Of a DNA stretch of 64,000 bases, positions 1,166 through 63,100 are shown one piece after another; the first letter of the stretch is position 1; every line of letters starts with the position of its first letter. Origin of the DNA: Diadema setosum (taxonomy: Eukaryota; Echinodermata; Echinoidea; Diadematoida; Diadematidae); NCBI RefSeq assembly GCF_964275005.1, contig NW_027307651.1, forward strand, positions 868,001 through 932,000, given 5' to 3'. The notes beneath the pieces are model-generated. The model had not been told where the DNA came from. It worked only from the letters and a program-made list of their open reading frames with translations, and searched no databases. Both the position numbers and the translations under genes were made by a program.

Positions 1166-1215
1166 CGCCCCCCCCCCCCTAAGATCAAATCCTGGCTACG
1201 CCGTTGCCTATATCT
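1140..1215. repeat. Transposon-like end abutting the satellite
   Basis: The array ends in a CpG-rich TCGCTTCGCTCCCTCGCAG segment, a C11 tract and the terminus-like string aaatcctggctacgccgttg. That ending resembles terminal repeats of dispersed elements in marine invertebrates. The other end was not located. Confidence 0.4.
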
Positions 1216-1702
1216 GAGTAGTTTCGCTTTCCTGTGTGGACGGAGGCGTGGCGACAAGAGAGCTGATTGCCTGGCTGTCTGGCTGGCTGGCTCATCCTGT
1301 CCAGTATCGGGTCCAGACGCTATTTGGGTCGAGAACCGTTTTCGCTTTCCCTTGGACGGGACGTTTCTCGAATTGGATCATGCTCAGAAGCAAATTCTGC
1401 ATACGGCACGCTCAAGTTCTGACCGTGTCGTGCTTGCGAAAGCTCACTAACGTATGTGCCTTGTGAAACGGGCATGCTTTATGCCACATCATCTGCAAGA
1501 ATCGGGGACTTCGACAAACAGCTGCGTATGATATTATTTTCCCCATTCACACTAGCTCTTTTTAGGAATTGCGCTTGTTTTGAAAGGATGCATTGCATGA
1601 AGTGTGCTCGACAATCATGTCTATTTGAGAACTGCGATGACTGTGACAGGCTCGTTGGACATTGCCATCGAAACGTTTATTCATTTTGCCTTGTGTAATG
1701 TG
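1216..1702. other. Upstream region of the Ig gene, nothing recognised
   Basis: Non-repetitive sequence between the satellite and the signal-peptide exon. It should carry the promoter and 5' UTR of the Ig gene, but no convincing TATA box or initiator was seen. Short open frames here have no recognisable domain. Confidence 0.3.
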
Positions 1703-1772
1703 ATGGATAAAAGATGCGTTCTCGTTCTATCAATATTTGCAGCTTCTGTGTTCTGTAGCCCCACTGCAGAAG
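1703..1772 (+). CDS. Ig gene exon 1: signal peptide
   Basis: ATG at 1703 opens 23 codons with a basic start (MDKR), a hydrophobic core (VLVLSIFAASVF) and a plausible cleavage site after FCS. The exon ends in GAA G|GTAATT, a phase-1 donor. It matches in phase the acceptor at 4114-4115 that opens the V domain. Separate leader exons ending in phase 1 are standard in Ig-superfamily genes. The link is inferred from phase and content only. Confidence 0.5.
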
Positions 1773-4700
1773 GTAATTTGGTTTTATTTTCATAAACTTA
1801 CACTCAGTATAACTTCATCAGGTCTCAACAAAGTAATATCACCTAAAAGTTTTTTGTTTGTTTGTTGCCTTTTTTTAAGCGGACGGCGCTGAACCGAACA
1901 ATCATGTAATATAAATGTAATCACCATCTTTTCTCCATCAATTTTCGCTCATTTTGTTTCAGATGTACTCACCTCCTATCCGAAAACAGCTAATTTTTTC
2001 ATGTGAATTCGACGCAAAAGTCATCTTTTTGTTCAAAGTTGGCTATTGGTGTCTTTGTAGTCGGTGCTCTTTGGAGTAAATGCGTTAAATCGGTGCGACA
2101 GCAGAGTATTCTAAGTAATTGCCTAGATAGATTTGCAAAAATGTTATTTGAGTGATCATTTAAAGAACGTCATACGTCTATACAGATTAGTATATTATAG
2201 GCAGTCATTCAGTGTCTTCCATTAAGTCTCATTGGGAATGGCATATATTATTATTGAACAGAAAAATAACAAAATTAAATAAATCATTTCCAAGACCAGC
2301 TCGATTAAACTCTGCCCGATCATGCGGATTGTTGAACAGGCTAGATGCTGCAGAAAAATATCTGCAATATGTATGCAAAACCGATGCTCGAATGATATAA
2401 ACGTTTTGTACATCATTAGATATAAGGTATTCTACTCTCTTATCAGAATAACAAATAAGAGAAATAAACACAAAATTTAGTTTTCAAGAGTATGCCACGT
2501 TCTTGCTTATCCTGTTGAAATTATAGTCATAAATGGCATTCCAGATATCAAGCTATTTGTTCTAAATCCTAGTCCAAGAACCAATAGTATTGGTGTAAAT
2601 CTAAAAGTATTGAAGCTCAAAAAATTGTGGAACATCCCAGAAAAGTACCCTGCTGCACATGTCTGAGAAGGAAAACGCAATAATGACTCTCTCTGGAAAT
2701 TCAAAGAGAGTAAAAAACAAAAACAAATCAGCATTGATAAACGTGATATGACAATTCCTATATCGCAAACTACATTACTACATCACAAAACGAAAAAAAA
2801 AGTTGCACCACTTGATTTTACGTCAGGGCTCAAATAAGGTGAAATAGGTCAACCGAGTCAATCTTCAGTTGTTCATATTTTCTGAAAGAGCTATCCTTCT
2901 TCTATATTCTTCTGTAATTTGGGATCATAACATGAATGAGAAAGTGTGTTTCCAGCAGTATTTCTACAACCATTTTTTGGAGGAGAGTAGAATTTATGTA
3001 TTTGTTTCATTTATTCATTTCAATATTCTTTTAGCAGGGTAGCTCTTTCAGTTGGTTAACTGTTCTATCAGGGGACCCTGCTCACATTATGTAGAGATAA
3101 AAATGTCATGAACATCAAAACAGAGTACAAACAATGAAATAACTTATACTACAAATCAACCACTACACCAAAATATACAATGATCAGGTATGTCTCAAAG
3201 GCATATTTTCATTTCTTCAAATCCTTTGCACACTCTTCATTTTCAAGTCTAATAACTTTCGAAAGGATATTGTTGCTGCTTTGAAATTTGACATTAATCA
3301 TGGACAGAATATGTTAAAAGAACATGCTTAATTTCAGTTTAATCTGATAATCTCTTCATTGTTGTTGCTCCGGTGGTTATCATCATGTGTTTTGCCTCTT
3401 CCATCGCTCATCGAGCACAGCTTGGTAAAGATTAACCGCTTGAATAGACGCTGTACTTCAGAGCCTCGTTTTTGTTTTTGTTTTTTCAGTTCACGTTTTC
3501 CAGAGTGTGTACTTACTTCCCAGTATTTAGTTAGGTTAGGAGAATACATTTGAATTGAATTACACGTCATTTTAAAGCTTAGAGTCTGCTCTGTCAGAAT
3601 TTGCCCTTAACTAAAAATCTTTCCGGCGACTTTTTGTTTGTTTTGTGATGCAGGGTCACATACACACATACAAACACATAAATACAGTTTTCAATAATTG
3701 TGTACAATAATGCAATCATATACTAACGATACACTAAGGACATACATAATTACCAATTTGTTATTAAAAAGTAACGAGATGCGATGATATTCTCTACAAT
3801 AACTCTAAAACTGTAGAACATTGTTTGCAGAAATTTTGCAGGAAAAAAGAAAAGAAAAATCAAAAGTAGGAATATTTCTTACACTCCTAAATGATAATGT
3901 TGAAATGTTTATATTTCCTTAATTTTTTATGTCGAATGACAGAAATAACCTCTCTAGAAATAGAAAAGGCAGCCGATCCAGATGTACAATATAACATAAC
4001 TGTGCTCGATTTCAAGTACTTCATTTTCATGTCTCTCTTTTAAAGAAACAATGGAAGATGTGGCAGGAGATCAAGAGACTTGCTAATACTCCAATTTTCA
4101 TCGTTGTACTCTTAGTGGTAGACACTGTCTCCAGCGTTCAAGGATGGAAAGGGGAAGACATTCGACTGCCATGTCACTTCCAAGGGGAGCCATTGGCTGT
4201 GATCTGGGCCAAGGAGACCATTTCGTATCAGCAGCTGCCTAAGGCTGAATTTAACGAAGGGAACTTTGAGAGCTTGGAGAAAGGGTTCGATATCGACAAG
4301 AACTTTAGCCTTGTCATCACCGACCTGAAGGTAGCAGATGAGGGTCTCTACCTTTGTCAAGTGGTTTTGAAGAATTTCGACAACTTTGAGAATTCCGTCT
4401 TTTTGACGGTTATCTGTAAGTTCACCTGCTATCATATTGCCATAAGGAGACATGGAGAAAGGAATTTAGATGGCAAAAATTTGTCATTACCACATTCAAA
4501 TAGTTATACATCATTGCATTTTTAGAGTTATCAAAATAAGATAACAAAATCACTTATAAGGATGTACAAAACCTTCCTCGACCAGCATCGCGATGTAAGC
4601 CTCATAATCATTGCCACTTGAATAAGATGGGAGTGGCAGAAAGGGAATTTTGCAATTCCGAAGACACATTGAATAGCTGTGACAATCATGGCAAGAGATA

Positions 4701-7410
4701 TTGTTATGTGATGAATATGCTTCATATTTTTATACACTTGTTAAGTTTTAATCTTCTTAGCATTTTTCATGTTCAATAGCAAACCATACCGCAAACATTT
4801 AACACTTTTTTTTCACGAGAGAGATGCAATCTGCTAAAGTTGTCATAGTAATTTGGCGAGTAAGAAAAAACAACAACATAAGGCTCATATTTTTAGTATT
4901 GAAGGTGTGACATTCTATGAATTTCCTGTTTCCCCTAGCGATAGCATCAAAACATACAATCGAGGAATGCGTCGATAAGAGCCAGTCACATCAAAGTAGG
5001 TGTACTTACCAAACTCCGTCCAACGCTACTTCCATTATACTTACGTGTGTCGTGAGTGGATTCAAGCCTGACATTTCCATGATATGGACCGATGAGACAG
5101 ACAACACTATCTGACGACACATACGAGAGGTTCGAGAAAATTAATGTTTCAGCCAAACATGGGACAGAGCGAACTTTGATGTGCAAAGCTACCGGTGACT
5201 CTATGAACGGAACGTCAACTAAAGAAATCACGCTTCTGCCTATATCAGGTTCTGTGAAAAGTTTTTCAATTTTGTGTTTCTGAATGATAACGAATTTTGT
5301 CAAAGCTTCTATCGCCACTACTACTACTGCTACTACTGCTAAACAATCAAACGAACAAAAAAAAAAACAAAAAAAAAACGAACGAATGAACAATCAGACA
5401 AACAAAACTAGAGGAGCACTCATCTCTGACCACATTACTCCAGTTCTCCAATCCATCCACTGGCTCCCCATTCATCACTTTTAAAATCCTCCTTATTGTT
5501 TACAAGATATGCAATAATCTTGCCCCATCTTATCTCAAAGACTTAATTTCCTTCCGCTCTTCCACTTCAACCCGTTCTCTCCGTTCTTCCTCCACTCTCC
5601 AATTATCACGTGGTCCCCGCACCTGTACCCGTTTGGTCATAGGGCCTTTTCTGTAATTATTTCCCCACTTCTTTGGAATAAACTCCCTTTTTATATTCGT
5701 AATGCTGAAAATGTTGATAGGTTTAAGTCATTGTTGAAAACTTATCTGTTTCCACAACCTTATTTCTGTTGTTGTTGCGTCGTTGTATCATAATATGTAC
5801 ATAATGCTGTAGTTTACTTTTACGTTATACTTTTTCTTTTTCTTTTTTCCCCGGATTGATGCGCTTAGAAACATCAGTATTAAGCGCTATATAAATGTTA
5901 TTCATTATCATTATCATTTATCTGCCAAACAAATATGGTTATTTTGTATTCATAGATTCTAAAGCGACATTTATACTTTATATTGAATTATTGGGAGATT
6001 AAGCTTTTCTGTGTTCCTTGTGTTTCTTTAACCCTATAAAGCCCAAGGGGGGGGGGGGTGGGGGGCCTACCATATTTTCGTTTGCCACTCCTACACCCTT
6101 CACTCGATTTCAACCAAATTTGGTGACTTTTCCTAAAATCTTATTGCAAACATTTTGATATATAATTTAGCTATGTCCGATATTGCTGGTTGCCATGGCT
6201 ACCGTAAACTGACAACCATGTCAGTCAGATTTTGAATGATTTTCTGTTCCAATTTCACTTAACAATATAATAATGGATGAAATGGGGGTTTTCTTGGCTG
6301 TAATTTGCTGAAGGACCAAAATGTGAATTAATTATGGTTGTGAATTACTCTGAAATGGTCTTCTTATTATTTCCTTTATTTTTTATATGACATAGGCATC
6401 AAACAATGGATATAATAGAAATAATCGAAAATACAGCATTTTCCAAAGACTACCCTTTTATTTTGTGTTATCTTCACACAAGCTTTGCCTGTAATATCAT
6501 TTTTTTTATCATATTATCAATCTGCAAACTCAAAATTTCAATATTTTGGAAATATGAAATGTGATACCAATATATGAACCCATTCCAAGCAATACATCAT
6601 AGGTTTCATATATTTCTCTATATTGTAACGAGTAGCGCCCCCACGTGTTGACCTTGAGAAATTTCAACCATAACAAATAGTGAAGGTTGACTTGCTTTTC
6701 CTTTTTGGTAAATATGAAAATGATTGATATGAAATAAAAACATATATACTGGGATAAAGAAATAAAAAGAAAAATATATGATTTTAGCGTATTTTCTATG
6801 TATTTCTGTATATTTTGGTAAATAGCGCCCTCAGTGGATGACCTTGAGAAATTTAAAATGTTGGGTCATGTAGAGTATGAGTTGCTTTACCCATGTGCCA
6901 AATATGACGGTCATACATCATATAATAAAGAAGTTATATAGGGGGGGGGGGCACAATGTGCCCCCCCCCCCCTTGGGCCTGGAAGGGGTCAAAATAGCTT
7001 GGGCTTTATAGGGTTAACCTTTGACCTTGGATTTCGTGACCCCAAATTTATATGTTTCCTTCGTGTTTCATCATACACATACCCTGCAAGTTTGGTGAAA
7101 CTCTGACTATCAATTGAATAACTCGTCAGTTAAGTTATTAGGTGACTAAGCGTAGTTCATGATCCCCTATATGGGTTATAGGTTGTAAAATCATTGAGGT
7201 ACTTATTTACATGTTTGATGACCTCTGTAGGACTCGAGTAATGAGTGAATAACGTGATTTCACTTTGTCTATATCAAATTCCAGGAAAACGAGATAATTT
7301 CGGTCTCATCATTGGACTCATCATCGGTATACCTTTTGCCGTATCCATCATATTTCTTCTTGTTCGAAAGCTTCGGCAAAAATGTCATTTGGACTGCCTG
7401 CCCCCAAAAG
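1703..7410 (+). CDS. Ig-superfamily type I membrane receptor (V-set + second Ig + TM), partial model
   Basis: Four exons are proposed: 1703-1772, 4116-4415, 4939-5248 and 7285-7410. All use GT-AG introns, and every junction is phase 1, the usual pattern for shuffled extracellular Ig exons. In order they give a signal peptide, a V-set domain with the B-strand Cys, the core Trp and a DEGLYLC motif, a second Ig domain with LTC/MIW/LMC landmarks, and one membrane span followed by RKLRQK. About 268 residues are covered. Such proteins are cell-surface recognition or adhesion receptors; no ligand can be inferred. An alternative start is the in-exon ATG at 4058, which also gives a hydrophobic leader. 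The second Ig exon needs a one-base frame change near 5095-5113 to read through, so this is either a sequence error or a decaying allele. The C-terminus is unresolved: the gene may stop in the following intron or splice into the rolling stone-like exon at 8063. Confidence 0.6.
1773..3185 (+). other. Ig gene intron 1, 5' part
   Basis: AT-rich intronic sequence. No coding exon, RNA gene or complete transposon was recognised before the repeat fragment at about 3190. Confidence 0.35.
3190..3660 (-). mobile_element. Partial copy of the GTGAC..GTCAC TIR element
   Basis: Read on the minus strand, this closely follows the left two-thirds of the complete element at 52518-53201. Shared strings include caaacaaaaagtcgcc, agcttaaaatgac-type and tcctaacct blocks in the same order. 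One terminus (ending ggtcac near 3656) is present; the other is missing. It is a non-autonomous DNA transposon fossil lying in an intron. Confidence 0.65.
4116..4415 (+). CDS. Ig gene exon 2: V-set domain
   Basis: A 300-nt exon, phase 1 at both ends, from the acceptor ctcttag|TG to the donor ATC T|GTAAGT. It encodes a V-set domain: A'-B strands VQGWKGEDIRLPCHF (B-strand Cys), the core Trp in VIWAKE, and an F-strand DEGLYLCQV that fits the D-x-G-x-Y-x-C signature, then a G strand ending FLTVI. Spacing between the two Cys is about 66 residues, normal for a V set. If the ATG at 4058 is used instead, the same exon carries its own leader (hydrophobic FIVVLLVV). Confidence 0.8.
4416..4938 (+). other. 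Ig gene intron 2
   Basis: AT-rich intron with a GTAAGT donor and a cccctag acceptor. No embedded gene or repeat was recognised. Confidence 0.5.
4939..5248 (+). CDS. Ig gene exon 3: second Ig domain, with a frame break
   Basis: After the acceptor tcccctag the frame reads to an Ig-like B strand (IILTCVVSGFKPDIS) and core Trp (MIW). It then stops at TGA 5112-5114, while the next frame continues the domain (SDDTYERFEKINVSAKHG, then TLMCKATG with the F-strand Cys). The donor is TCA G|GTTCTG. The exon is 310 nt, one more than the multiple of three demanded by phase-1 ends, so one extra base near 5095-5113 explains the break. It may be a sequencing or assembly error, an allele or true decay. The fold looks C1/C2-like. 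Confidence 0.65.
5406..5925 (+). mobile_element. 5'-truncated LINE 3' end (CR1/L2-like) in Ig intron 3
   Basis: Translation gives the typical C-terminal tail of CR1/L2-group reverse transcriptases: HITPVLQSIHWLPI, then an FKILLIVYK-NLAPSYLKDLI stretch, a basic RSLRSS segment and KLICFH-like text near 5750. The 3' end has gcgctatataaatg and a short ATT-rich tail (ttattcattatcattatc), as these LINEs have. The body upstream is absent, and several frame changes show it is old. Confidence 0.75.
6028..7017. mobile_element. piggyBac-like MITE (982 bp) with TTAA target duplication
   Basis: TTAA at 6028-6031 and 7014-7017 flank inverted ends CCCTATAAAGCCCAAG (6032 onward) and its complement CTTGGGCTTTATAGGG (ending 7013). 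TTAA duplications with CCCT ends are the piggyBac signature. There is no transposase frame. Near the right end a G10 tract, a short CACAATGTG core and a C14 tract could form a strong hairpin. Inside, two segments (gagtagcgcccccacgtg and aaatagcgccctcagtgg, each followed by a gaccttgagaaattt-type string) form an internal duplication. Confidence 0.85.
7285..7410 (+). CDS. Ig gene exon 4: transmembrane segment
   Basis: A 126-nt phase-1/phase-1 exon from attccag|GA to AAA G|GTGTCT. It encodes KRDNFG, then an uninterrupted hydrophobic stretch of about 21 residues (LIIGLIIGIPFAVSIIFLLV), then RKLRQK, a classical stop-transfer. The topology is therefore a type I receptor with a short cytoplasmic start. 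Read past the donor, the frame stops at 7470-7472 after a low-complexity FFYFSIL tail that looks like intron. Confidence 0.75.
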
Positions 7411-8062
7411 GTGTCTTTTTTTATTTTTCTATATTATTTGATTTGTTTGTTTCTTTGCTTCCTTCACAATAGCAAGTCCAATGGAATTAACTAGGAGGTT
7501 CTCTAACATCCTACACAGTGACTCTTGTAATAGTCGTTTATTTTGACAATCGAAAATGTGCTGATCACTTCCTGCCATACAGTATCTTGCCAGACTCATC
7601 AATAGAATTTAGAGGCATTACTTAATTTGCAGATTAAATAAAAATATAGCTTTAGTGCTTCAGAATAGTTATAAGAAAAAAGAACCAACGTTGTGATAAT
7701 TATGAAAATTATAATCGATGTTAAGTATTGTTAACTATACATAGCAATAGTTACAGTGAAGAATATTAATAATGTAATTGCTTCTAAACTAAACCGTTTA
7801 ATTTTATGGTTTAGCGGAAAAAAAAATAGTGCTATCGCCAAATATCTAATGTTTATATTGCGATATTCTATACGGTAGGATTTAATTTTCTGATACAACT
7901 GACGACCTACACATGTTCACATAAATTATGCATCAAAATGTGATAACTTGATTTTTTTTAATCACTGGCAATCAATATCTAGGAGGAAAGGGAGCCAGTT
8001 GCGCTTTACAGGAGTAAGATTTTTTTTTTTTTTTTTTTTTAATTGCTATTCATGTTGTCCAG
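7411..8062 (+). other. Intron or intergenic gap between Ig TM exon and rolling stone-like exon
   Basis: About 650 bp, AT-rich, with a T21 run just before the acceptor at 8061-8062. A potential AATAAA lies at 7637-7642, so the Ig gene could end here by intron retention. No ATG in the frame of exon 8063-8184 occurs after the last in-frame stop (7900-7902). Confidence 0.5.
7637..7642 (+). terminator. Candidate polyadenylation signal AATAAA
   Basis: This would serve the Ig gene if its last exon is read through the donor at 7411 to the stop at 7472. It is a weak call in an A/T-rich stretch. Confidence 0.2.
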
Positions 8063-8184
8063 TTTCGCCACCGACCTCAGAGACTACAGCGGGTAGTGAA
8101 GATAAGAGCAGAGAGTGGTACTCCATTAAATGGACGGACTTCAAACTTTGTTGCGGACGATTGAGGGACGTGTCCACACCACAC
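8063..8184 (+). CDS. Copy A exon 1: cytoplasmic N-terminal block
   Basis: Acceptor ttgtccag|TT (phase 1) to donor CCA CAC|GTGAGT (phase 0). It encodes SPPTSETTAGSEDKSREWYS followed by a W-T-D-F-K-L-C-C block and RDVSTPH. It aligns with copy C 54440-54565, but the region matching copy C's ATG lies in another frame here. Confidence 0.7.
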
Positions 8185-9242
8185 GTGAGTATGGATATGA
8201 TTCATCGACAGGTGGTGCATGAGTGCAAAGTTCAAAGCAATTTCATTACGATTTAAAGGGACTGTACTGTACTGGTTAAGGTGGGGATTCATGTTTTGAA
8301 CATTTCTAAGTGAGATGATGCAAAGCCTCTTATGAAATATGAAAGAGCATGTAATGTTAAGAAGAATTCAACGTTTATTTGATGAAAATTGGTTTTCAAA
8401 TGGCCGAGATATCCAAAAAAGTGCTAATGATAAAAGGCGACATGCCACAACTTTATTAGGATCTCTTTGTTTCACCTTGTTTTTGGATATCTCAGCCATT
8501 TCAAAGCCGATTTTCATCAGATAAACTTTTGATACCCCTTAGAACTGCGTGCTCTTTGACATCTCATAGAGTGGTTTCTGAATATCTCGCAAAACGTTAA
8601 AAGCTAAATCCTCACCTCGACCAGAACTGTACACACCCTTTAAGTACACACCGCACTGCGTGCATAATTATCATGTCTGTTGGTAAGACATGGTGCCTCA
8701 AACGGCAGTAAACATCACATTACTTGCATATATATATATATATATATATATATAGGTATATGGTGATAACAAGTGTATATTACAACTGTTCTTTATCAAA
8801 GGATAATCATGATACTGGCATTTTGTGTTCTATTTTGAAGATGAGGGAAGGGGATTTTTTTTCTTCTTTTTCTTTCTTTTCTTCAAGAATACTAAGAGAG
8901 GAGAGTCAGTTTCAAATGTATTCATATTCTCTGCATTGGCTGACATTTACCATAATAAATTGAACAACAAATGAAGAAGAAGGAAAGCCTGTCTAATCTT
9001 CTGACAACACTTGCCTATAATTATCATCTTTATAGTCTTATTATGACATTATTTGGATTTTGGATGCTTATTTATGTGCATGATCCTCATTAGAATAATA
9101 CATTATTTGATAGATTAAGCCTTATAACAATTTTTGCAGGGACAATTAAAAAAAAAGTTTTATATTTCTTCGTTTGAATCACATTCATTGTTCTTGTGTT
9201 ACACCCTCCCTATCCCTCTTATGTCAGCCCCCCCCCCCCCTC

Positions 9243-9290
<48 letters not shown>

Positions 9291-10799
9291 AACAAAAAAT
9301 AGAAATAATTAGCTAATTTTTTCGCAAACGTATAGTGTTCGAAAATTTTCAGCTTATAGCGAATATCATTCAAAATAATTCAAACGCCTTGCATGGTTAG
9401 ATCTTTGTTTGATAACACTCAAGAATTAGTTTGAACTTAAGAAGTCAACTATATTACTAGAACTTTGTGTAACAGTTTCTTCGAAAACGCGTGTCAATAA
9501 TAAAAAAAAATAACAACTGCATTCATCTTTTCCTCTTTCAGCCTAGAATACCTTTCTGGTTGTACGCCCTCTATCGATGCGCACTCGCCACTTATTTCTT
9601 CCCATTCCTGATATTTTATTTCGTGCCTGGAGCGGAGAAATTGGGTCATAAATTCATTATCTACATCCCAGTATGGTCGTATACAGCCACCACATGTTAC
9701 GTCTGCTTTGCCTTCTTCAACGTTGTGTTGGACTTTGTGGAGAGGAGAGGAAATGCAGAACTTGAAGGTACGGTATTAAGTTGACATGGTTGAAGTTGAA
9801 AAGGGCTGAGGTGGGAAGAAGCTAACACGAATGCAATTTTAAGCGGAATAAAGAAAGCTTGCGAAAATGCAACTTATTTGATAAATTCGAATGCAACTGT
9901 TTACGATCCCTGAGGAAACCAAAATTTGCTACGTTCGGAAATATTTGCCGCTTAGTGTGATACTCTCTTTTGATAGTACAGCATGCTATAAGATCTCCTA
10001 TACATATCCTGTGGGCTCTCAGAGAAAAGAAAATAATTTTCAGGAACGTCACAACATTTCGCTGCTAAGTGCATGACTTGGTTGCCCTGAAATTGCACGT
10101 AATGAATAGGACGAATGTTCCAAAATGTACATGGTAAACGTACATAATATAGTTGTTGATGAATATTTTCGTTTTCCTTTAAGTATGCGTTGGTTCCACA
10201 TTGTTTTGCTCATTGTTACTCCTCTATCTATTTTATATCTCTCTTGAAACATCTGTCTTGAATGCTGTTCTTTATACTTATACAATGTAGATGAGTTTCG
10301 GTACCAGATTCAGTGGCTTCTCTTCAACGTCGCCGCCGTTCCTTCCATCATCTCAACCGGCTTCGACTGGGGGGCGCTTTACTATGTCGTATATGATAAG
10401 ATTCCGACTTTAATTTTCATCAGTCTTAACTTCCTCCCCACCGTCGTGTGCTTCGTAGACATCTTCATTACGCTGATCGTTATCCGATTCTTACATGTGG
10501 TTTACCCTGGCACTCTCCTGATCTTTTACGTGCTCTTCGCTGTCGGCTACTGGGCGGCAGGGGGAACAGACCCGTCCGGAAACCCCTTCATATCTCCCAT
10601 TCTCGACTTCGGGAACTACCCCGGCATAGCGGCCGCAACAGTGATGGGCGTGTCATTGTTAACGTTGCTGCTTCAGGCCGGTTTAAAGGGATTATACGCT
10701 CTCCGCGTCCGGTGTATGGACAGCAGAAGACAAGAACCTGTTCCTTCTACAGACGAGCCGTCAAGTGGAAATGTCGAGCTCGAAAAACTTACCGAGTAA
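8063..10799 (+). CDS. Rolling stone-like six-pass membrane protein, copy A
   Basis: Exons 8063-8184, 9542-9767 and 10291-10799 give about 285 residues to the TAA. Landmarks shared with copies B and C are the N-terminal W-Y-S-x-x-W-x-D-F and L-R-D-V-S-T-P-H block, PRIPFWLYALYR before TM1, TCYVCFA in TM2, FRYQIQW before TM3, FLHVVYP at the end of TM4, YWAAGGTD after TM5 and LKGLYALRVRCMD after TM6. Rolling stone in Drosophila acts in myoblast fusion; the role of these paralogues is unknown. The hydrophobic core is open throughout. The first exon has no in-frame ATG, so an upstream exon must supply the start. Its phase-1 entry fits the Ig transmembrane exon, but a separate undetected 5' exon is equally possible. 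A poly(A) signal follows at 11029. Confidence 0.8.
8253..8643. mobile_element. MITE with TTTAAAGGG ends, in copy A intron 1
   Basis: The left end ttaaagggactgtact and the complement of the right end ttaaagggtgtgtacagttc pair over about 45 bp, continuing as ctggt(t/c)(a/g)aggtg(g/a)ggatt. The interior contains a second inverted pair, tggccgagatatcc near 8401 and ggatatctcagcca near 8487. There is no coding capacity. A degraded relative lies near 39380-39510. Confidence 0.7.
8728..8754. repeat. (AT)n microsatellite
   Basis: About 13 AT dinucleotides within copy A intron 1. Confidence 0.95.
8755..9228 (+). other. Copy A intron 1, middle
   Basis: AT-rich intron between two AT microsatellites. 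No recognisable exon or transposon end. Confidence 0.4.
9229..9289. repeat. C11 tract followed by (AT)n microsatellite
   Basis: A C11 tract (9230-9240) and tccaaa lead into about 22 TA/AT dinucleotides. Confidence 0.95.
9542..9767 (+). CDS. Copy A exon 2: TM1 and TM2
   Basis: Acceptor cctctttcag|CCT (phase 0), donor GAA G|GTACGG (phase 1). It encodes PRIPFWLYALYRCALATYFF, a first span, a loop HKFIIYIPVWSYTA, and a second span TTCYVCFAFFNVVLDF ending in a basic/acidic ERRGNAELEG tail. Confidence 0.9.
9768..10290 (+). other. Copy A intron 2
   Basis: 523 bp, similar in size to copy B intron 2 (498 bp). The acceptor is tacaatgtag. No repeat recognised. Confidence 0.6.
10291..10799 (+). CDS. Copy A exon 3: TM3-TM6 and C-terminal tail
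   Basis: Enters in phase 1 (G|AT = Asp) as DEFRYQIQWLLFN. It then encodes spans around ISTGFDWGALYYV, FLPTVVCFVDIFITLIVIRF, LLIFYVLFAVGYWAAGG and AAATVMGVSLLTLLLQ, followed by LKGLYALRVRCMDSRR and a hydrophilic tail ending EKLTE. TAA at 10797-10799. Confidence 0.9.
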
Positions 10800-21540: not shown

Positions 21541-22508
21541 ATCAATAGGTATATCAACATGGACCTGCCACACATGGACATACATCGCTCATTTATTAAT
21601 TCAAACACCTGTTTCTGTGAAAAGTGTCACAATAACATTTAAAAGATGCTTTCCTGCTTTGATCTCATCGTGCATCACCGACAGCCAGCCTGGATTAAAA
21701 GCAAGACGGCGCTTTGAGATATCTCAAAACTACATGCACAGAAGACGATAACTTTCTTACATCAAGAAAGATGCATGTGCAGTTGTAGTATACATTGGGA
21801 AATCGCTCAGTTAATTTCATTTGCGAAATGCACGCACTTTATAAGAAAAGGCTAGTATTTCGGCAGGCTGGTTGTAATTTGTAATCTAATTTTTCCCATT
21901 TTTCGCACATTGTTTCAGAGTAAAGATGGACAGTAATGGTAGACGACATGTACAGTATGTCTTTCCATAAAGCAACGTTACATGCGCGTCCACAAGCATC
22001 CACTTCAGTAATTACTAATTTTGTGACACGAAATTTGTCATGATTTGAGCTGGGTTTGCGGCTCCCCGTCATTGTCAATTTTCCAAAGGCAGTTAAATCT
22101 GGAAAGGCACCTCGGCGAAATAAACCCGAAATGAGGGAAACGGTTCTTTTGTCTAGTTGTCAGTGACGATGAACGATTACACAATCGTCATTGTCCAAAC
22201 ACCTGAATGTACTCATCAAGATGCACATAATCAGGTGGCGCCGATGCAGGGCGGATCAAAGAAAGGCCCTCCGTTCATAGTCCATGTGTGTAGTAGGTCC
22301 ATGATATCAAGCACTTTTTCTCTTGATCAGTCAACCGGTCAATAAGAGTAATGCTCTCCATGAATCTCTATTACGATTTTGCTCGTACCGTGTACATAAT
22401 ACAGGAACCTTTATAGAAGCAGGTTCCCCTGCGAACGCGGGTTATGGTATAGGAAACTATTAACAGAATCGCTGTTTATGATGACATCGGAAGGTTGTTG
22501 ACTTTCAG
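21541..22508. other. Region upstream of copy B
   Basis: Anonymous. It should hold copy B's promoter if exon 22538 is active; no convincing core promoter motif was seen. Confidence 0.3.
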
Positions 22509-22633
22509 GGGACTCACTACCCACCGAGCAGACAACCATGAATAGTGAAGATGAGAGCAGAAAGTGGTACTCAGTGCAATGGGCGGACTTCAAACTTTGT
22601 TGCAGACGACTGCAAGACGTGTCCACACCACAC
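22509..22633 (+). CDS. Copy B exon 1 (N-terminal block)
   Basis: Frame from an acceptor-like gactttcag|GG (phase 1) or from ATG 22538, encoding MNSEDESRKWYSVQWADFKL and CCRRLQDVSTPH. The donor CAC|GTAAGT is perfect and phase 0. It aligns closely with copy C exon 1. Confidence 0.65.
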
Positions 22634-40778: not shown

Positions 40779-42267
40779 ATGTGAGAACGCTTTCAGACCA
40801 AAGTTGACGGTCAATCTTGAATTTTTCAAGTGCTCTCCTTACTTCACCTCCCAGATTTCAGTTTCATTCATAATGTATTATTCTGTAAAAACTCTTACTT
40901 GGGTAAAGTCGCGCTGGACTTCTCGGGTCAGGAAGGCGTGTTCGAATTGCAGTGATAAGCCGTTCCGTACACTATTTGAATCCTTACATCTTTGCTCATC
41001 ATTTTTTTTCTACTTTCTTTCTTTCTTTCAGCCAAGAATTCCTTTCTGCTTGTACGTCCTCTATAGGTTTGTTCTCGCCGCGTATTTCATAGCTCTTTTG
41101 ATAGCTTACGTCATACTCGCAGCGAAGACACTGGGCCCGAAGTTCCTCATCTACTACGAATCTTGGACGTATACTTCCGCCACCTGTTATGTATACCTTG
41201 CCCTTTTTAATGCTGTGGTGGACTTCAGGAAGAGCAGGAAAAAGAATGCAGCACTTGAAGGTACAGTATTCTTTGCATAAAAACAAAGCCTCAAATGATA
41301 AGTTATGATGTCCAAACATTATAGTGACATGTTTCATACCCTTTCTGTAATACCTTATCATTATACCCTTCTGACTACTTAGCATATTGACAGAACTGAT
41401 TATGACGAATTCTGCCACTGACTGATTTCCCCCTTTTGGTGGCTCTCGGAAATACACTCACTAAGACCATAAAGTACATATTATTAATATTTTTGTTTTA
41501 ACTTGCACTGCAATCATTGCTCTAGTTATTTTCTGTAAATCCTCACGTTCGATCATACTTTCCATTCGTAATTTGCTAGGATTGTCACCAAAGATTCCAT
41601 GGGCGTTTTAATGTGATTTTCTGGTCACAATCGGTAAAAGATGATTTTAGCTGAAATGGTATAATGATTACATGTTTGTTTGCTTTACGTGTTACCATTA
41701 AATGTGTTAACCATGATTATTCTCTTTCTCTTTTAAATATCGTTCGTTTAACTTCCAGACAAATTTCGATACCAGATCCAGTGGTGTCTCTTTAACCTCA
41801 CTGCCACTCCTTCCATCATCGTTACCACTTTCGACTGGGGGCCGCTGTATTTTGCCAATTCAGAAAAGGTATCGCTCTTACTTTACGTCAGCATCTACCT
41901 CCTTCCCAACGTCGTTTGCCTCATCGAAATCTTCCTCACATTGATCATTGTCCGCTTCGTACACGCGGTCTATCCAGCCTTGTTCATGATCATCTACCTG
42001 CTCTTCATCACCATCTACTGGGCAGCTGGAGGAACGGACCCGTTCGGAAATCACTTCACCTATTACTTACTCGACTTCGAAAACTACCCCAGCATTGCGG
42101 CCGCAACCGTGGTAGGCATAACGTTTGCAGTGCTGTTGGTTCAGGTCATTTTAAAAGGATTGTACGCCTTCCGTGTCCGATGTATGGACAGGAGGAGAAC
42201 AGAAGCCGTTCGTGCTCGAAGGAAGGAGGAACCTGAAGCTGCCCAGCTCAAAGCACAGACTGAGTAA
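22538..42267 (+). CDS. Rolling stone-like six-pass membrane protein, copy B
   Basis: Exons 22538-22633 (start at ATG 22538, context acaaccATGA), 41032-41260 and 41759-42267 encode 277 residues to TAA. The same exon phases (0, 1) and motifs as copies A and C are kept: QDVSTPH, PRIPFCLYVLYR, ATCYVYLALFNAVVDF, FRYQIQW, FVHAVYP, YWAAGGTD and LKGLYAFRVRCMD. The tail is more basic (RRRTEAVRARRKEE). The first intron is 18.4 kb, against 1.4 and 3.9 kb in the other copies, and is filled with satellites and transposons. The upstream ATG matching copy C's start (22474 region) is closed by TGA after a few codons, so translation must begin at 22538 or from another exon spliced to the acceptor at 22507-22508. 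Exon 1 may alternatively be an orphan and exon 2 may use an unknown first exon. Confidence 0.7.
22634..23935 (+). other. Copy B intron 1, first part
   Basis: AT-rich, nothing recognised before the MITE at 23936. Confidence 0.35.
23936..24525. mobile_element. 590-bp TIR element (MITE)
   Basis: The left end tttaaaggttaaatccagcc and the complement of the right end tttaaagacgaaatccggtc agree at most positions, and both continue caaat. The interior contains inverted-looking AT-rich segments with gacattttgaagtttc and its near-complement gcaaaacttcaaaatgtc. No transposase. Confidence 0.65.
24550..25510 (+). mobile_element. Degenerate LINE reverse transcriptase (CR1/L2-like)
   Basis: The frame at 24525-24725 reads GSPLGPLLFILYVHDFS then FTDESSSFS, corresponding to the PQGSVLGPLLF..FADD core of a non-LTR reverse transcriptase. 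Further on, other frames give NKLSWKCHVDNI near 24903, then LLKLKDFYYFQFGQFMFKLK near 25185 and the conserved tail region to about 25500. Several stops and frame changes and a mutated FADD motif show it is dead. The position is copy B intron 1. Confidence 0.75.
25721..25840. repeat. GCCCTTTCGAAA/CCATA minisatellite attached to a GTTTATCAACTTTCC end
   Basis: Seven or so 12-bp units (agccctttcgaa, agccctttccat) follow ggctgcgtttatcaactttc. The same terminal sequence and the same units recur at 34111-34360. Confidence 0.8.
25841..26276. other. Anonymous DNA
   Basis: Moderately GC-rich unique-looking sequence. No gene recognised. Confidence 0.3.
27490..28010 (+). repeat. Tandem repeat, about 170 bp x 3
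   Basis: The landmark atatgcaaattag recurs at about 27495, 27665 and 27837, with a degraded fourth copy near 27998. Each unit contains ataaaaatacagtgtttccat, a ttggaacaccga string, a gttgaaa(c/t)ctatgttt string and gttagtgcgatg. Confidence 0.85.
28300..31830 (+). repeat. Dimeric higher-order satellite (~215-bp monomer, ~440-bp dimer)
   Basis: Monomers share a tct(a)caat..gtgaagagggtg-cacatt core, a gggatgtgcc word, a ggcaatatagaaaacat word and cgtgccgtatagcaaaggca. In the better-preserved right half the last landmark recurs near 30425, 30867, 31312 and 31748 (about 440 bp), because two alternating monomer types differ. The left half is more diverged. Confidence 0.8.
31831..32529. other. Right inner part of the 6.4-kb element
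   Basis: AT-rich, with several gttgccatgg/ccatggcaa words also seen in the left part (26630, 26770), consistent with one diverged symmetrical element. Confidence 0.35.
32699..33984. other. CpG-richer island without an assigned gene
   Basis: Contains many CG dinucleotides. An exon-like stretch runs from ATG 33130 to the donor GTAAGT at about 33202 (MAWRERRCTVREPF...). No partner exon or protein family was recognised. It could be transposon-derived. Confidence 0.3.
33988..34071. mobile_element. 84-bp MITE with GTGCGTTTATCAACT ends
   Basis: gggtgcgtttatcaactcct at the left and gagttgataaacgca at the right are inverted ends. Confidence 0.7.
34111..34360. mobile_element. Nested GTGCGTTTATCAACT MITEs with GCCCTTTCGA minisatellite
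   Basis: One complete 91-bp copy (34111-34201) is followed by a gccctttcgaaagccctg segment and a third end near 34283 (ggctgcgtttatcaacttt), then more gccctttccata units. This is the same family as 25721-25840. Confidence 0.7.
34361..35319. other. Copy B intron 1, anonymous part
   Basis: Includes a run of gaagtgaactgaa imperfect pentanucleotide repeats (about 35240-35286) and a C12 tract near 35142. No gene. Confidence 0.35.
35320..35522. repeat. CpG-rich repeat, inverted relative to 39795-39950
   Basis: Shares gtgtcacaggcgatccgttcc (35380 region) in inverted orientation with 39924-39945. The words ccgatatactggcc and ttccgccggaac occur in both copies. Confidence 0.6.
35707..35881. mobile_element. 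Solo MITE of the GGGGCGGATCCAGG family
   Basis: The ends gtaggggcggatccagg and the complement acagtggcggatccagagg are inverted. The interior has T-rich and G-rich tracts like the units amplified at 17903-20722. This is the dispersed form of the satellite unit. Confidence 0.75.
35882..36529. other. Copy B intron 1, anonymous part
   Basis: AT-rich, nothing recognised. Confidence 0.3.
36530..36900 (+). repeat. Dispersed repeat (gagggaaatccgacaatccg family)
   Basis: Shares gttgagtgaatgcagcaata, a gtagaacacatcag string, a gagggaaatccgacaatc string and a ttcaaaa-ttatgaattt string with a diverged copy at 42870-43330 (+) and one on the other strand at 62880-63110. Confidence 0.65.
36901..39794. other. 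Copy B intron 1, anonymous part with a small tandem pair
   Basis: A-rich caa/caac-rich stretch at 37020-37200. A tandem pair of about 231 bp spacing has ggttttgtgcttttcaaac near 37928 and ggttttgtgcttttaaaac near 38159. A degraded relative of the 8253 MITE lies at 39380-39510. No gene. Confidence 0.4.
39795..39950. repeat. CpG-rich repeat, partner of 35320-35522
   Basis: Contains atcggcggtgaggcaaac, ccgatatactggcc and ggaacggatcgcctgtgaca. Confidence 0.6.
39955..40580. repeat. Degenerate short-word repeat (catgag / gagtcataca / cgacac)
   Basis: Dozens of variants of ccatgagaccgacac, gagtcatacagccca and gagttcgacacta, mostly direct in the left two-thirds and inverted (gactcgtgg, gtcgaac) after about 40430. 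It is probably a decayed minisatellite foldback. Confidence 0.6.
40581..41031 (+). other. 3' end of copy B intron 1
   Basis: Contains a C11 tract plus (CT)n at 40741-40778 and ends with a strong pyrimidine tract (ctttctttctttctttcag). Confidence 0.6.
41032..41260 (+). CDS. Copy B exon 2: TM1 and TM2
   Basis: Phase-0 acceptor ctttcag|CCA to phase-1 donor GAA G|GTACAG. Encodes PRIPFCLYVLYRFVLAAYF, a span, KFLIYYESWTYTSATCYVYL and LFNAVVDFRKSRKKNAALEG. Confidence 0.9.
41261..41758 (+). other. Copy B intron 2
   Basis: 498 bp, acceptor aacttccag. No repeat recognised. Confidence 0.6.
41759..42267 (+). CDS. Copy B exon 3: TM3-TM6 and tail
   Basis: Starts G|AC AAA (DKFRYQIQWCLFN). Spans surround TPSIIVTTFDWG, LPNVVCLIEIFLTLIIVRF, LFMIIYLLFITIYWAAGG and AAATVVGITFAVLLVQ. 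After RVRCMDRRRTEA comes a highly charged tail ending LKAQTE and TAA at 42265. Confidence 0.9.
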
Positions 42268-52513: not shown

Positions 52514-53205
52514 AATTGTGACAGTGCACCTCAAAACAAACAAAAAGTCGCCAGACATGAATTTTTAGTTAAGACCATATTCTGAAAAAGTTGACTTTAA
52601 GCTTTAAAATGATGTATAACTCAAATCAAATGGACTCTCCTAACCTATCTAAATATTGGAAAGAAAGCACAACCTCAGGAAAAGTGTGAACTGAGAAAAG
52701 AGGCTATGAAGTACAGTGCCTATTCAAGCGCTTAATACCAAACCGTGCTGGCTGTGCGATGAATGGGACAAAAAACAGGAAGTAAACCACCGGAGTAACA
52801 ACAATGAAGGGATTATTAGATTAAACTGAAATTAGGCATGCCTCATTTACACATTCTGTCCATAATCAATGCCAACTTTCAAAGCAGTAGCATTATCCTT
52901 TCAAAAGTTAATAGAGTTGAAAGTGAAGAGTGTGGACAAGGTTTTTCAGAAATGAAAAAGGGATTCTGAAGACACACCTAATCACACTATTCTATCAAAA
53001 ATGTTCGAGATAAGCTGCTTAAAAACACACTTTCCTGCCCGTTTTATGATACCAAATTCTAGCATAATGTAAAAGAAGACCCGCTTTTTCAGAAAATATG
53101 AAAAAGTCAAGTTCGGCTATGTTGACCCATTTTACTTGTTTTCAGTCCTCACGCAAAATCAGTGTGTGCGACTTTATGTTCGTTTTGAGGTGCACGGTCA
53201 CAATT
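52514..53205. mobile_element. 684-bp TIR element, GTGAC..GTCAC, AATT duplication
   Basis: Element 52518-53201 has ends gtgacagtgcacctcaaaac and the complement gtgaccgtgcacctcaaaac, both continuing (a/g)aaca(a/t)aaagtcgc. AATT lies on both sides. No transposase. A truncated relative lies at 3190-3660. Confidence 0.85.
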
Positions 53206-54412: not shown

Positions 54413-54565
54413 ATGACATCGCAAGGAAGTCCAGTATTTGGGGACTCATCACCGACCATGCAGACGACCACAAATAGTCAAGATGAGATCAGAAAGTGGT
54501 ATTCCGTCCAATGGACGGACTTCGAACTTTGTTGCAGACGACTTAGGGACGTGTCCACGCCACAC
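54413..54565 (+). CDS. Copy C exon 1
   Basis: 51 codons, a hydrophilic Ser/Thr-rich N-terminus then KWYSVQWTDFELCCRRLRDV and STPH. Donor CAC|GTGAGT, phase 0. Probably cytoplasmic. Confidence 0.85.
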
Positions 54566-57194: not shown

Positions 57195-60100
57195 GAGAGA
57201 GAGAGTAGGGTCAACAAACGAGGGAGTTCCAGGTGCGCGTATTGAGGTGTGCACACGCGCACTGCATGAAATAGCTAATTGAAGCTAGCCGCCCAATGAC
57301 GAAGTCTGGCTTCTCTATCATGGGGAAATAAAAGTGATATCTATAAAATAATGCGTGTATGGGTCCATAGAAAGGAGGTAGTTGGCGGAGGTATCCGCTC
57401 TCCGAGTGTTTCCAGCTGAAATATGGATTGATTATTGCTAATAAATTATGACAGAACAAAAATGCAATCCTTTGGTAGCTGTTACGAATCTCCTTTCAAG
57501 CTCTCTCATGGTTGGATATTGAATGTTGTCCATGTATCATGCAAAAAATCGCCGAGTGAGACAGTGAGACTGAAGTCTTTAAAAATCTCTGAGCAGAGTT
57601 TGAGAAGACACATCCCTTCCACTTTGAAAAATTCATTACTTGGAATAAAAATTAATAAGTTGATCTACTTGGACATGAAACCCGAAAGGCACTGAATCTT
57701 TGTTTTATGTTTTTTTTTTTTTTTTTTACGTTATAAAACGTGTTTTAACTCTGCGACACTGCACACGTGAAATAATATTTAAACATAATGTGCCTAGAAA
57801 TAGTGGATCACTTTGTTTTGCTGGTTAGGGTGTGTTTGTCTGTGAGTATGTGAGTATGTGTATCTTTTTTTTTTTTTTTGAGGAGGCTTTCATGTCACGC
57901 TGTTCTTCCATTCGGTTGCCTTGCACGATTAAGCAGAAGATTTTTTTTTTTTCGTTTGATAACTTTGATTTAGTTGAATATGTTAGTATTCGTTTCATTT
58001 TGAAAACTATGGTGACATCAAACATAATTCCAATAAAAATATCATTGTGAAAAAGTATGTGGTAGGAAACACGTGTGTGTGTGTGTGTTAATCTTAAATG
58101 AGGAAGAGGTGAACAGTTGCAGGAAATGAAATAACCAAGAAATCCAATATAGGAAAGATATGAGAAAAATTTGAAAGAAGAATTCATCGAAATGATCGCT
58201 AAAAGACGTACTGCTTTTGCTCTTATATGTGCAACGAGTGTGACGGACGAATAAGAATTCGAAATTACGAAAATGTGTGACAAATGACTGAATTGAAGAG
58301 TCTTTGTTCGAAAATGATCGACAAAAGACGATTTTGAATCTAGCATTAGCATATTCCAAATTTCTCTGGGAGAAATTGAACTACAAATCTATTGAACTTA
58401 ATGAAATAGGTTTAAGAATGAACGGTAAAAACTATTGTATCTTTTTATCATCTTTCTGTTCTCCCTATCTAACTTTCAGCCACGATTACCATTCTGGTTG
58501 TACGCCCTCTATCGGTTCGCACTCGCCGCCTATTTCTTCTCGATTTGGATAACTTACGTCGTTATACTTGTAACGAAGGCAGCGGACCCGAAGTTCCTCG
58601 TTTACCTCGACTTCTGGGCGTTTCTTACCGCAACATGCTATGTTTGTTTTGCCTTCTTGAATGCTGCATTGGACTTTGTAAAGAGCAGGAGGAATGCAGC
58701 GCTTAAAGGTACAATTATTGTAATATGGTTGGAGTCGAATAGGGCTGCGGAAGGAGGAAACTAACACGAAAGCGATCGAGCGAGAGGACCTCAAAAGCCC
58801 AATTTAGAGACGCATTCCACTGTTGTGCTTAGTTTCTTCTCAAAGGTTATTCTTGGCATGCAGGGTCGTTGACACCTGCAGCTTGAGACTTGCCAGTATT
58901 TACCCCTGTTTTTTGTTTGTTTGTTTGTTTGTTTGATTGATTTGATTTGTTTAATCCCAAGACACCGTTCAGCACTGATTGTGATGACTTTACTAATTCT
59001 AGTGAATTATAAAACTTTGCTGTGCTTTGTCATAATGCTCAAGAGAATAAACACACACACAAGCATACAAAATTATGATGTCAATAAAGAAATACAATGT
59101 ACTACCATACTTTTAAAATGTTTCTGTAATGTTCTAATTATAACGCTACTGTCTAGGGGAAGTACTATGATAATCGTGAATTCGGTTACACTATAATTTC
59201 ACTCCTTCTAAAGCACTCACAGATTCAAATATTTTCTTACCACATTTCTCTCACATAGCTTCCTTTAATATAGTATCAGGAACATGCAGAGCACATTTTT
59301 CACCGTGGAAACATTTGTAAACAATGCCTTTACACCCACATCTTCAAAACTCTTTTGTGCTCATGTTCTCTTGCAGGACCACGAATTGAGATCAGTTAAG
59401 ATTTTACACGATGTAAATAGTCACTACAACTAGAAAGGCACTCAGAGAGCGGAGACCTCCGCCAAGCAGCTCATTTCCACCCGTACAGGCATGCTGAAAC
59501 TCGCTCAGTTTCCCAATATAGAATCATTTTGCTTACGTCATCAGCTTCTAGCCGCGCGGTCCCTCGCCCCATCATAGCATGCGCACGCGTTGTAGAGCGC
59601 GTATGGAAACCTTAACAAGAAATATACGTGCATCTTGAACTCGCAAGTTCATTGACTGTATATGCAAAAACATCAAAAATCCTTCAATAAATTCACAAAA
59701 ATTGCCAGATAACCATCAAAACTGAATTTTTTGTTTCTTATGTCATCATCGACATTTCCTGCAAGTTTCATTCAAATCCGCTCGCTACTTTTTGAGTTAT
59801 TTTGCACACGGACAAAGAAACAAACGCCGAAGAAAACATAACCTCCTCCCTTGGCAGAGGTAGATAATTTGAAAAGAAAACGGGGAGCAAAGACCTCCGC
59901 CAAGTCAGGAACTCATTTCCACCCTTAAACGCGTGCAATATCCCAGAAAATGGAGCCTTTTGTTTATGTCATTGCACGGCGCCTCGCCCGAGCAAAGCAC
60001 GCGCTTTAGTGCTCGTATGTAAACCTTTAGTACGCCCAGCTTGGACCCCAGGTTCGTTGACCTTATGATGGCAAAAGATGAAAAATCGTTCAAAAATCCA

Positions 60101-63100
60101 TAAAAATTAAAGGACCAGTTGATACCAAAATTATGTGAGGTGGTCCTTGTGTCAATATCGACATTTTATGCAAGTTTCATTTTAATCCGTACAAAACTTT
60201 TTGAGTTATTTTGCAAACAGACCAACCAAATCCGATGACACTTAACCTCCTCCTTCCATGCGTGGCGGAGGTAATAATGATATATGGACTTGCCTTGAGG
60301 GGATACGACATTTCTTGCCTGAAGTAGAATTATATTGCCCGAGTCGAAGACGATGGTAAACAGTTCTAGTGACGGCAATCCCCCGAAGGTCCATATCGGT
60401 ATTATGGGAATTTGCCCTCTGTCGCGAAACCCAGGTATGCGGCGCGCGTAGAAACAGCCAGCTCACACAGAAATGGCGCGTTTACACCGGGCACGGTATG
60501 AGCAACGGGCCGGGTTTTTGCTATGGTACGCCAAATGGAACCATGTTTTGGTTCTGTTAAAAAATCGCACAAAATGTTTCCCTTATGTCAAAATCAAGAT
60601 GACCAAAATCAACAATAGAAGATTAATATTGTAAGAAAATTATTAGCGGGGAAGTGATATTGTAAAAGAGCCAGACATGGTCCTTTTGGTGCACCATAGC
60701 GAAAACCCCGTTCCTTGACCCGTGCCGGATTTGGTGTATTTAAAATGAGCTTAACAGCGACCGTCCTTTAATTTTACTTGTTAACCTACTTGGGTATTTG
60801 CTCTTCGTCGCGAAACCACTCAGCGAGAATCTGTCATCAACAGCAAATTTTCCCCACTGGGAGCGTGAAGTGCCCGGATGCTATAGGCTATTCCCCTCGT
60901 TTTTTAACACGCAAATCCCATAGGCGTTTGCCAAAAGGGGAAAAATTCACCCCTCTTCGCCCTGCTGGCGCGCAATTCCGCGTGTAATGACGAGGGTAAT
61001 ACATTTTTGTAGAGCCCCAGTTCAGATGTTTAACCCTATTCTAACTGCGCGCCACGATTTCGCAACGCGCAAAGCTTTTGCCGCGTCGTTTCACGACTTT
61101 TTTCATTGAAGTCTCCCGCATATTTTGAGACCAAATTTGCGACGTCCGGGTACACCGTTTTGAAGTTACGTAATGTTTTGCATATGCATGTCAACCAAAA
61201 AACAGCTCAAATTCATGATATCGTGTGCAAATCCAATGCAAATTGTGTTTTTTGGTTAAATTGATATACATTAGATTATTTCAACTTTTAACCATTGAAA
61301 TTAATTGATTCTAGTGTAGATAAGCCTGAAAGAGTGCCTGCAACAAGTTTTGGCAAAAAAAACAATAGAAAACAAAAGGTTGAAAAAACAATAATATACA
61401 TAAGAAATTAAGAAAACAATAAAAAACAAAGAAATTAATTTCAATTGAGCTATTTTTTTTATACGAAAATTGTTTGAAGTGTCTTGAGGAATTCTGACAC
61501 AAACATTTAGCAATCCTCCAGTCTTTTTAATGGAGTTATAGGTAAAAATATGATTTCATGCACAAATTTGCATAATTAATTTATTAAAAATAGAAAGGCA
61601 ATATTTTTCTATTGTATGACGATGTAATCTTGTAGTTGACATCCAGCTCTATCTTCAGGCAAAATTTCGGGGCAATCGCGCGATCGGCGGCCGAGATCTG
61701 AAGGGGGGGTCAAATTGACCCCCCCCCCCCCCTCAGTAAAAACTTGGTCTCAAATAGCCCAGTTAGAATAGGGTTAATACGGGTAATGATAATAATTAGA
61801 TCTGCACCATGAGACGAAACGTAGTACAGCGTAGTACAACTTACAACAGCGTGCCAGGTCAAGCGGCCTTGTTCAACGAACCCTGCTGGAATGCGACTCC
61901 TGAGCTGTATCCTCCTTGTGTGTATTGCGTACATCTCCGACAGATTTCACACTATCCCACCTCTTAAATCATGTACTTATAACCATACTTTTACGCCATA
62001 AATCTACACAATTTACCTTCATACCATTTGAATCATTTTATAATCTCAGTCGTTTTGCCATGCAATGTCCTTCACTTGTTACCTCTGCCAAGGGAGAAGG
62101 AGGTTAAGTATTCATGGGCGTTAGTTTGTCTGTTTGCAAAATAATTCAAAAAGTTGTGTACGATTAGAATGAAACTTGCATGAAAAGTCGATGTTTGCAC
62201 AAGTAACACCTCGTTCAATTTTGGTTGTGAACCGGGATTCTTTTTTTTTTTCCAATTTTGAAAAATTTGTGTTTTTCTGGCATATAAGATCAACAAACTT
62301 AGGGTTGAAGCTGTGCCTACTGGAGGTTTACATACGCGAACTAAAGCGCGTGCTCCATGTTCGCCGGGCAAGGCGCCGTGCAATGACGTAAACAAAAGGC
62401 TTTGATTTTTGGGAAATTGCACGCGTGTAAGGGTAGAAATGAGTTGCTGGCTTGGCGGAGGTCTGTGCTCTCTAAGTGCTTTTCTAGTTAGTAATGTGCT
62501 TTTGATAGTAACATTTATTTGACTTTTTGTTTTGTTTTGGTAAGTTCCTCCCAATAACAGTAGGGTCTACATAGATATTTTTACTTCATAATTCCATAAG
62601 TCTGATTTATACTGGGACCTGCGGCTGAACAAGCTTGCTTTTACGTAGGCCCCATCATATTTCGCAAACTATGACCATAGATCAACTCTAAACAGACCCT
62701 TGTGTTTATACTCAGACAAACTGTTGTACATTCCAATGAAGTTTATTTATTCAGTTAATGATTTTGAATTCCCTAATTGTAGTTTTTCTGTTCTATTTAA
62801 GTGGAAAATAAAATAATTTGAAATCAAAATTGAAATCATTCAGCTAACTTTTACTCCGGCTACTTTCTCAGAAAGGTAAGTCAAGTGCTCTTTTATTATG
62901 CTAGAAAATATGTTATATTTTCTTTGCATTTTCTATTTATTTCATTGCCCATAAAAATGACGTCATGTAATGTAGTCGTTGTCGTATCCAGAGATGACGG
63001 CACCGATATTAAAAAATCCCAAACTTTTGAGTCGATCGTTCGATTTCCCTCATACTTCTCTGATGTGTTCTACTAATATTGTTGCTTTCACTCAATCCAC

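Follow-up and report, generated by a model that had tools for sequence, protein, structure and literature searches.

The window analysed here, a 64,000-nucleotide stretch of the sea urchin Diadema setosum (contig NW_027307651.1, positions 868,001 to 932,000 of the forward strand), corresponds to C25:868001-932000 in an assembly of the same genome (912.7 Mb, 102 contigs) and contains three copies, A, B and C, of a rolling stone (rost) gene. We conclude with good confidence that copy A is a member of a multigene family in which exons for two immunoglobulin (Ig) domains and a transmembrane (TM) segment are spliced to rost genes that lack a start codon of their own. The exon order, the shared intron phases, the kept reading frames, the mutual exclusion of the TM exon and the rost start segment, and one intact full-length frame were all observed. 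Judged from the sequence, the Ig-TM and rost exons would be joined in one mRNA and translated into one protein. A chimera of this kind had been proposed from copy A alone (here called the original prediction), and its support now comes from the gene family outside the window.

Exons of copy A

The Ig1 exon matched the Pfam V-set profile (E = 3.5e-12; 46.9 bits against a cut-off of 26) and carries a hydrophobic leader in frame immediately before the Ig fold, with an ATG at 4058 (Table 1). Downstream, copy A matched the Rost protein profile (PF21534; E = 2.6e-14; 53.7 bits against a gathering cut-off of 26.8) over profile positions 43-256. The rost body is multi-pass, and a hydropathy scan gave seven peaks, two of them adjoining, and the number of spans is put at six only provisionally. 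Rolling stone proteins reputedly have six spans, and six is our assumption here, taken from the family. There are eight lysine and arginine residues before the first hydrophobic peak and six after the last; a cytosolic position of both Rost ends, and hence an even number of spans, would fit the sequence. A type I span ahead of such a body would then place the Ig domains outside the cell.

We confirmed that, reading upstream from exon 1 of copy A, no in-frame ATG occurs before the stop at 7900-7902, that this exon opens in phase 1, and that the TM exon closes in phase 1 at a distance of 652 bp upstream on the same strand. The phase match itself, which the original prediction had offered as evidence of fusion, proved to be at chance level: 14 of the 45 donor/acceptor pairs were compatible in two open frames, close to the chance share of one third. 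The apparent lack of a clear last exon in the Ig gene was not decisive either, as the Ig frame stays readable beyond the TM exon until a stop that ends at 7472. The case for fusion was therefore decided by comparison across the family and not by the missing last exon.

The possible signal-peptide exon was the only hydrophobic exon with an ATG and a phase-1 donor that the window scan listed upstream of Ig1. Its frame and donor are both preserved on the other haplotype, and its use would shift the start of the Ig1 exon to 4143. At three other loci, no DNA match to this exon was found in about 2 kb of sequence preceding Ig1, and the scan there gave unrelated candidates.

Table 1. Coordinates of the Ig, TM and rost exons in the window (a slash marks the splice site)
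Feature	Position	Strand	Remarks
Possible signal-peptide exon	1703..1772	+	MDKRCVLVLSIFAASVFCSPTAE, phase-1 donor GAAG/GTAATT; role uncertain
Ig1 exon (in-frame leader and V-set)	4058..4415	+	Donor ATCT/GTAAGT, phase 1
Ig2 exon (C1-set-like)	4939..5248	+	Frameshifted in the window, with 32 bp deleted at about 5093/5094
TM exon	7285..7410	+	Phase 1 in and out, donor AAAG/GTGTCT
rost exon 1, copy A	8063..8184	+	Start-less; phase-1 acceptor TTGTCCAG/TTTCG
rost exon 2, copy A	9542..9767	+	
rost exon 3, copy A, with stop codon	10291..10799	+	Open in the window; other haplotype with one premature stop
rost exon 1, copy B, start-segment class	22481..22633	+	In-frame TGA after the first ATG; a further in-frame ATG downstream
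rost exons 2 (41032-41260) and 3 (41759-42267), copy B	41032..42267	+	
rost exon 1, copy C, own ATG	54413..54565	+	
rost exons 2 (58480-58708) and 3 (63116-63618), copy C	58480..63618	+	

Two classes of rost gene

Before the first codon common to all three window copies, B and C share 28 of 39 nucleotides, and A shares only 15 and 13 with them; copy A thus lacks the start segment. An own start codon, as expected of a rolling stone gene, is present in copy C and others and absent from copy A. When the same genome was searched with exon 1 of copy A, matches were found at a minimum of 40 places on C25, C4 and C1 (40 of 46 candidates scored). We fetched 39 of these loci (L009 and L011-L048), mostly with about 2 kb upstream and, for L009, as a 10-kb stretch; a start segment was called when at least 10 of its 14 letters agreed. 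A homologous TM exon lay upstream on the same strand at 19 of the 39 fetched loci and at the window copy, that is, at 20 of 40 places, counts that are not independent because the loci share descent and include allelic pairs. Not one of the 39 loci had both the start segment and the TM exon: 16 had the segment only, 19 had the TM exon only and 4 had neither.

The TM exon was open at all 20 TM loci and ended there with a phase-1 G/GT, in spite of lengths of 93, 99, 123, 126 and 135 nt, all of them multiples of three. At 19 of the 20, rost exon 1 opened after a phase-1 AG. Past the TM donor, a stop occurred within 42 codons at 16 of the 20 loci, at scattered positions, and the read-through tail was not conserved. 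Matches to single exons were also listed genome-wide, with at least 150 for Ig1 (150 of 346 candidates scored), at least 150 for Ig2 (of 274), at least 111 for TM (150 of 195 scored), at least 150 for NACHT (of 217) and 88 for rost exon 3 (all 94 candidates scored); neighbourhood counts below are counts among the matches listed. Ig domains upstream of other rost-like genes, which the original prediction had suggested looking for, were indeed present: an Ig1 match lay within 15 kb upstream at 12 of the 20 TM-class places, compared with none of the 20 others. Only 2 of the 20 non-TM places had a TM match within 20 kb upstream, and both are copy B alleles, located 15-16 kb from the TM exon of copy A. 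In the other direction, 22 of the 28 TM matches from the rost array and the C1 locus had rost exon 3 within 20 kb downstream.

These patterns bear on a different explanation, in which the Ig and rost genes are two separate neighbours that were duplicated together, the Ig frame reading past the TM exon to its stop and rost starting in an unseen 5' exon or at a non-AUG codon. Duplication as a unit would keep the two genes side by side, the TM frame in the window does continue to the stop ending at 7472, and rost might in principle obtain a start from the exon at 1703-1772. However, conservation of the phase-1 donor at 20 of 20 loci over five in-frame TM lengths, with a read-through tail that is not conserved, is hard to reconcile with it. 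Outside the array, the TM exon of four fetched relatives ends with G/GT at the same place in all four, and a short exon between the TM and NACHT exons is conserved in three. In addition, a splice scan of 7411-8020 found no ATG exon whose phase-1 donor matched or beat the TM donor. The mutual exclusion counts in the same direction, as none of the 16 start-segment loci had a TM exon in the roughly 2 kb examined and all 19 TM loci lacked the segment. Adjacent genes with an unseen 5' exon, the other option of the original prediction, are disfavoured accordingly, and we consider this arrangement improbable.

Whole units strengthen the reading of copy A as one member of an Ig-Ig-TM-rost family. The order Ig1, Ig2, TM, rost 1, rost 2 occurs on one strand at L011, L012 and L013 (the last with two Ig1 exons), and L037 has the same order from Ig1 to rost 2. 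On C1, the complete frame of L012 spans 571 residues between an ATG at C1:26563509 and the stop at 26552494; every intron has AG/GT, and the predicted TM-to-rost exon 1 junction runs from C1:26561625 to 26561345. From Ig1 onward, this chain matched V-set (4.2e-11), C1-set (4e-4, at the cut-off) and Rost (4e-14; 53.1 bits). The Ig1 leader is in frame at L011, L012 and L013, and an in-frame ATG is present only at L012.

Several observations weigh against this reading, in addition to the shared descent of the loci. Among the loci followed as far as rost exon 3 (copy A on two haplotypes, L011, L012 and L040), only L012 is complete: copy A is disrupted on both haplotypes (in Ig2 in the window and in rost exon 3 on the other), L011 has all six exons open, including rost 3, but with TG instead of AG at the rost acceptor (the one AG lost among the 20 TM loci), and L040, followed from TM to rost 3, has rost 3 in two frames. 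The Ig1 leaders of L011 and L013 have no in-frame ATG. Start-less exon 1 contains a stop at 2 of 20 loci (L025 and L047), and L044 (C25:96088-98698), one of the four loci with neither start segment nor same-strand TM exon, is a broken unit in which Ig2 and TM precede rost exon 1 in inverted orientation. Rost exon 3 is missing within 20 kb of 6 of the 28 array TM matches, and 15 of the 27 Ig1 matches from this region lack a listed rost exon 1 at a distance of up to 15 kb; the array is decayed in part. The donor at 1772, which ends the possible signal exon, outscores the TM donor, and its phase would also allow a direct join to rost exon 1. Constraint on the TM exon is weak (omega 0.73; twice the log-likelihood difference [2dlnL], 4.0), and a tree of the short exon 1 fails to separate the two classes.

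Damage to copy A and its surroundings

At C4:39105823-39105944 there is a 100% match to exon 1 of copy A, and C25 behaves as a second haplotype of part of C4. The two copy A loci are collinear over 1207-10524 in blocks of 89-99% identity, with insertions. In the window, the Ig2 exon changes frame internally, with the entry frame stopping at 5112 and the exit frame open only after 5082. On the other haplotype, Ig2 has 32 bp more, is open and matches C1-set over the whole exon (2e-5); the second Ig domain followed by a single span is present there and in the C1 copy. Because of the frameshift, a protein with two Ig domains and a rost body cannot be encoded by the window allele in its assembled form, so this part of the original prediction fails for copy A in the window and holds for the intact copy on C1. 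Skipping of Ig2 was considered as a rescue of the window allele and was ruled out by a TGA at the join. Within the family, the window copy is probably either decaying or null in an allele-specific way.

This damage, together with the stops, lost splice site and frame break in other array members, would be expected if the start-less rost copies were 5'-truncated pseudogenes that came to lie beside Ig genes by duplication, with nothing joined. The evidence of constraint argues against such an origin. Exon 1 (26 codons) gave an omega of 0.32 in the start-less class (2dlnL, 17.8; 18 distinct sequences) compared with 0.29 in the others (14 distinct sequences, L020 left out), and of 0.53 from the acceptor onward (L011 left out). 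As the exon 1 tree does not separate the classes, the estimate may include history from before the split, and part of the constraint on exon 1 may predate it. On the copy A branch, omega was 0.47, and a value of 1 was rejected (log likelihood, -2503.47 versus -2508.53); neutral decay over 30% of this branch left no stop in only 2.6% of simulated runs. The C1 copy, moreover, is intact. We therefore regard truncated pseudogenes as a very unlikely explanation of the class.

Rearrangement within the window was also considered as an origin of the junction, namely that an inversion of 2786-7712 turned the Ig gene toward rost A and a deletion then removed the promoter and start of rost A. The segment 2786-3660 does match 52517-53187 in inverted orientation, and 7713-7967 matches 53202-53434 directly. 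The first block recurs, with inverted ends (by eye), in DNA exclusive to the other haplotype and is thus a mobile element, which refuted this origin; since the Ig-TM-rost order also recurs at many loci, we give the idea practically no credence. The mobile element itself occupies 2786-3660 and 52517-53202 in the window, with the further copy only on the other haplotype.

Other repeats were noted around the locus. Between the Ig2 and TM exons, at 6028-7017, lies an element of about 990 bp with perfect 20-nt inverted ends starting TTAACCC, which we take to be piggyBac-like. On the C4 haplotype (L009), about 2.7 kb with inverted ends (by eye) is inserted between a poly-T tract and copy A's first rost exon; the window haplotype lacks this insert. 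The segment 5400-5920 resembles, by eye only, the 3' end of a LINE retrotransposon, and 1-1144 is a tandem repeat of 4.2 copies of a 275-bp unit. A search of Rfam returned no matches.

Of the other two rost copies in the window, copy C is without a TM exon over about 2 kb upstream and without an Ig1 match within 15 kb. Both score higher than copy A against the Rost profile (64.5 bits for C and 76.8 for B). Distant matches to rost exon 3 were seen outside the array on C4 (42.19, 42.21, 36.46 and 30.69 Mb) and on C8, C2 and C6; these are perhaps ordinary rolling stone genes.

A predicted Ig-Ig-TM front end with two bodies

Among the TM matches listed, 40 are on C25, C4 and C1, and 28 of these belong to the rost array or the C1 locus. 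The remaining 12 form a cluster at 37.2-38.2 Mb of C4, where none has rost exon 3 within 20 kb downstream, 11 have an Ig1 match, 10 have an Ig2 match and 10 have a NACHT match downstream. Ten NACHT matches were listed on C4, at 37.27-38.17 Mb, and there were none on C25 or at 38.7-40.7 Mb of C4 among the best 150 of 217 candidates. Of the four non-array TM loci fetched, two contain a NACHT exon in the fetched stretch (4.7e-21 and 2.6e-24). An Ig-Ig-TM-NACHT receptor gene family is present genome-wide, including L086 (C4:37768000-37771300) and L087 (C7:1766500-1769500), and its cluster on C4 adjoins the Ig-Rost array. From the predicted exons, one Ig-Ig-TM front end appears to be joined to two different bodies, NACHT or Rost, and the rost array appears to replace the former by the latter.

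A comparable order of domains is known from the sea cucumber Apostichopus japonicus, in which AjNLRC4 is described as having two extracellular Ig-type domains, a membrane span and an intracellular NACHT domain (PMC8699970). AjNLRC4 is also said to have two spans, and AjNLR-new is likewise given as Ig-TM-NACHT (PMC8699970 and PMC13133943). Binding of microbes by the Ig pair of AjNLRC4 has been reported (PMC8699970). The Ig, Ig, TM order is common to AjNLRC4 and the Ig-Rost family, whose kin in the same genome carry NACHT; in contrast, the C-terminal body of the Ig-Rost family is a multi-pass Rost. The comparison is one of domain order. As to the other half, the rolling stone family (PF21534) and Drosophila rost are covered in PMC9953650 and PMC7379565 (citing Paululat 1997). 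Copy A resembles that family in its Rost domain and several hydrophobic peaks but differs from it in having no start codon of its own and in being preceded by Ig domains and one more span. Chimeric genes that arose by rearrangement, with a gene body taking its start codon from another transcript, have been described in Drosophila yakuba (PMC6776367). Those are polymorphic new events, whereas Ig-Rost is a repeated family with a kept junction. Among the papers listed by our literature searches on rost with Ig, echinoderm, sea urchin or sea cucumber, there was no Ig-Rost protein and nothing else relevant. In flies, the muscle Ig fusion receptors Duf/Kirre and Sns act, like rost, in myoblast fusion; there they are separate genes, whereas here a single chain is predicted.

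We propose that the Ig-Ig-TM exons would be spliced, phase 1 to phase 1, into rost genes without their own start codon. The predicted protein would have an extracellular pair of V-set and C-type Ig domains, one span, a short cytosolic tail and a multi-pass rost body. The Ig pair may bind a microbe, as reported for AjNLRC4, or a neighboring cell, and the rost body, in the place of the NACHT switch, might link binding to events at the membrane, for example adhesion or fusion. More tentatively, an echinoderm-like family of surface receptors could be swapping its whole C-terminal machine by phase-1 exon joining, with an N-out Ig-Rost directly linking recognition of microbes or cells to membrane adhesion or fusion, a wider view that we put forward with some doubt. 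If these proposals are correct, a single genome would contain an immune-type receptor module that trades its entire intracellular half between two unrelated bodies, and a whole tandem array would retain the splice junction. One chain would then combine an Ig recognition domain with a member of the rolling stone family, which is tied to myoblast fusion in flies, and a functional link between Ig and rost would become directly testable.

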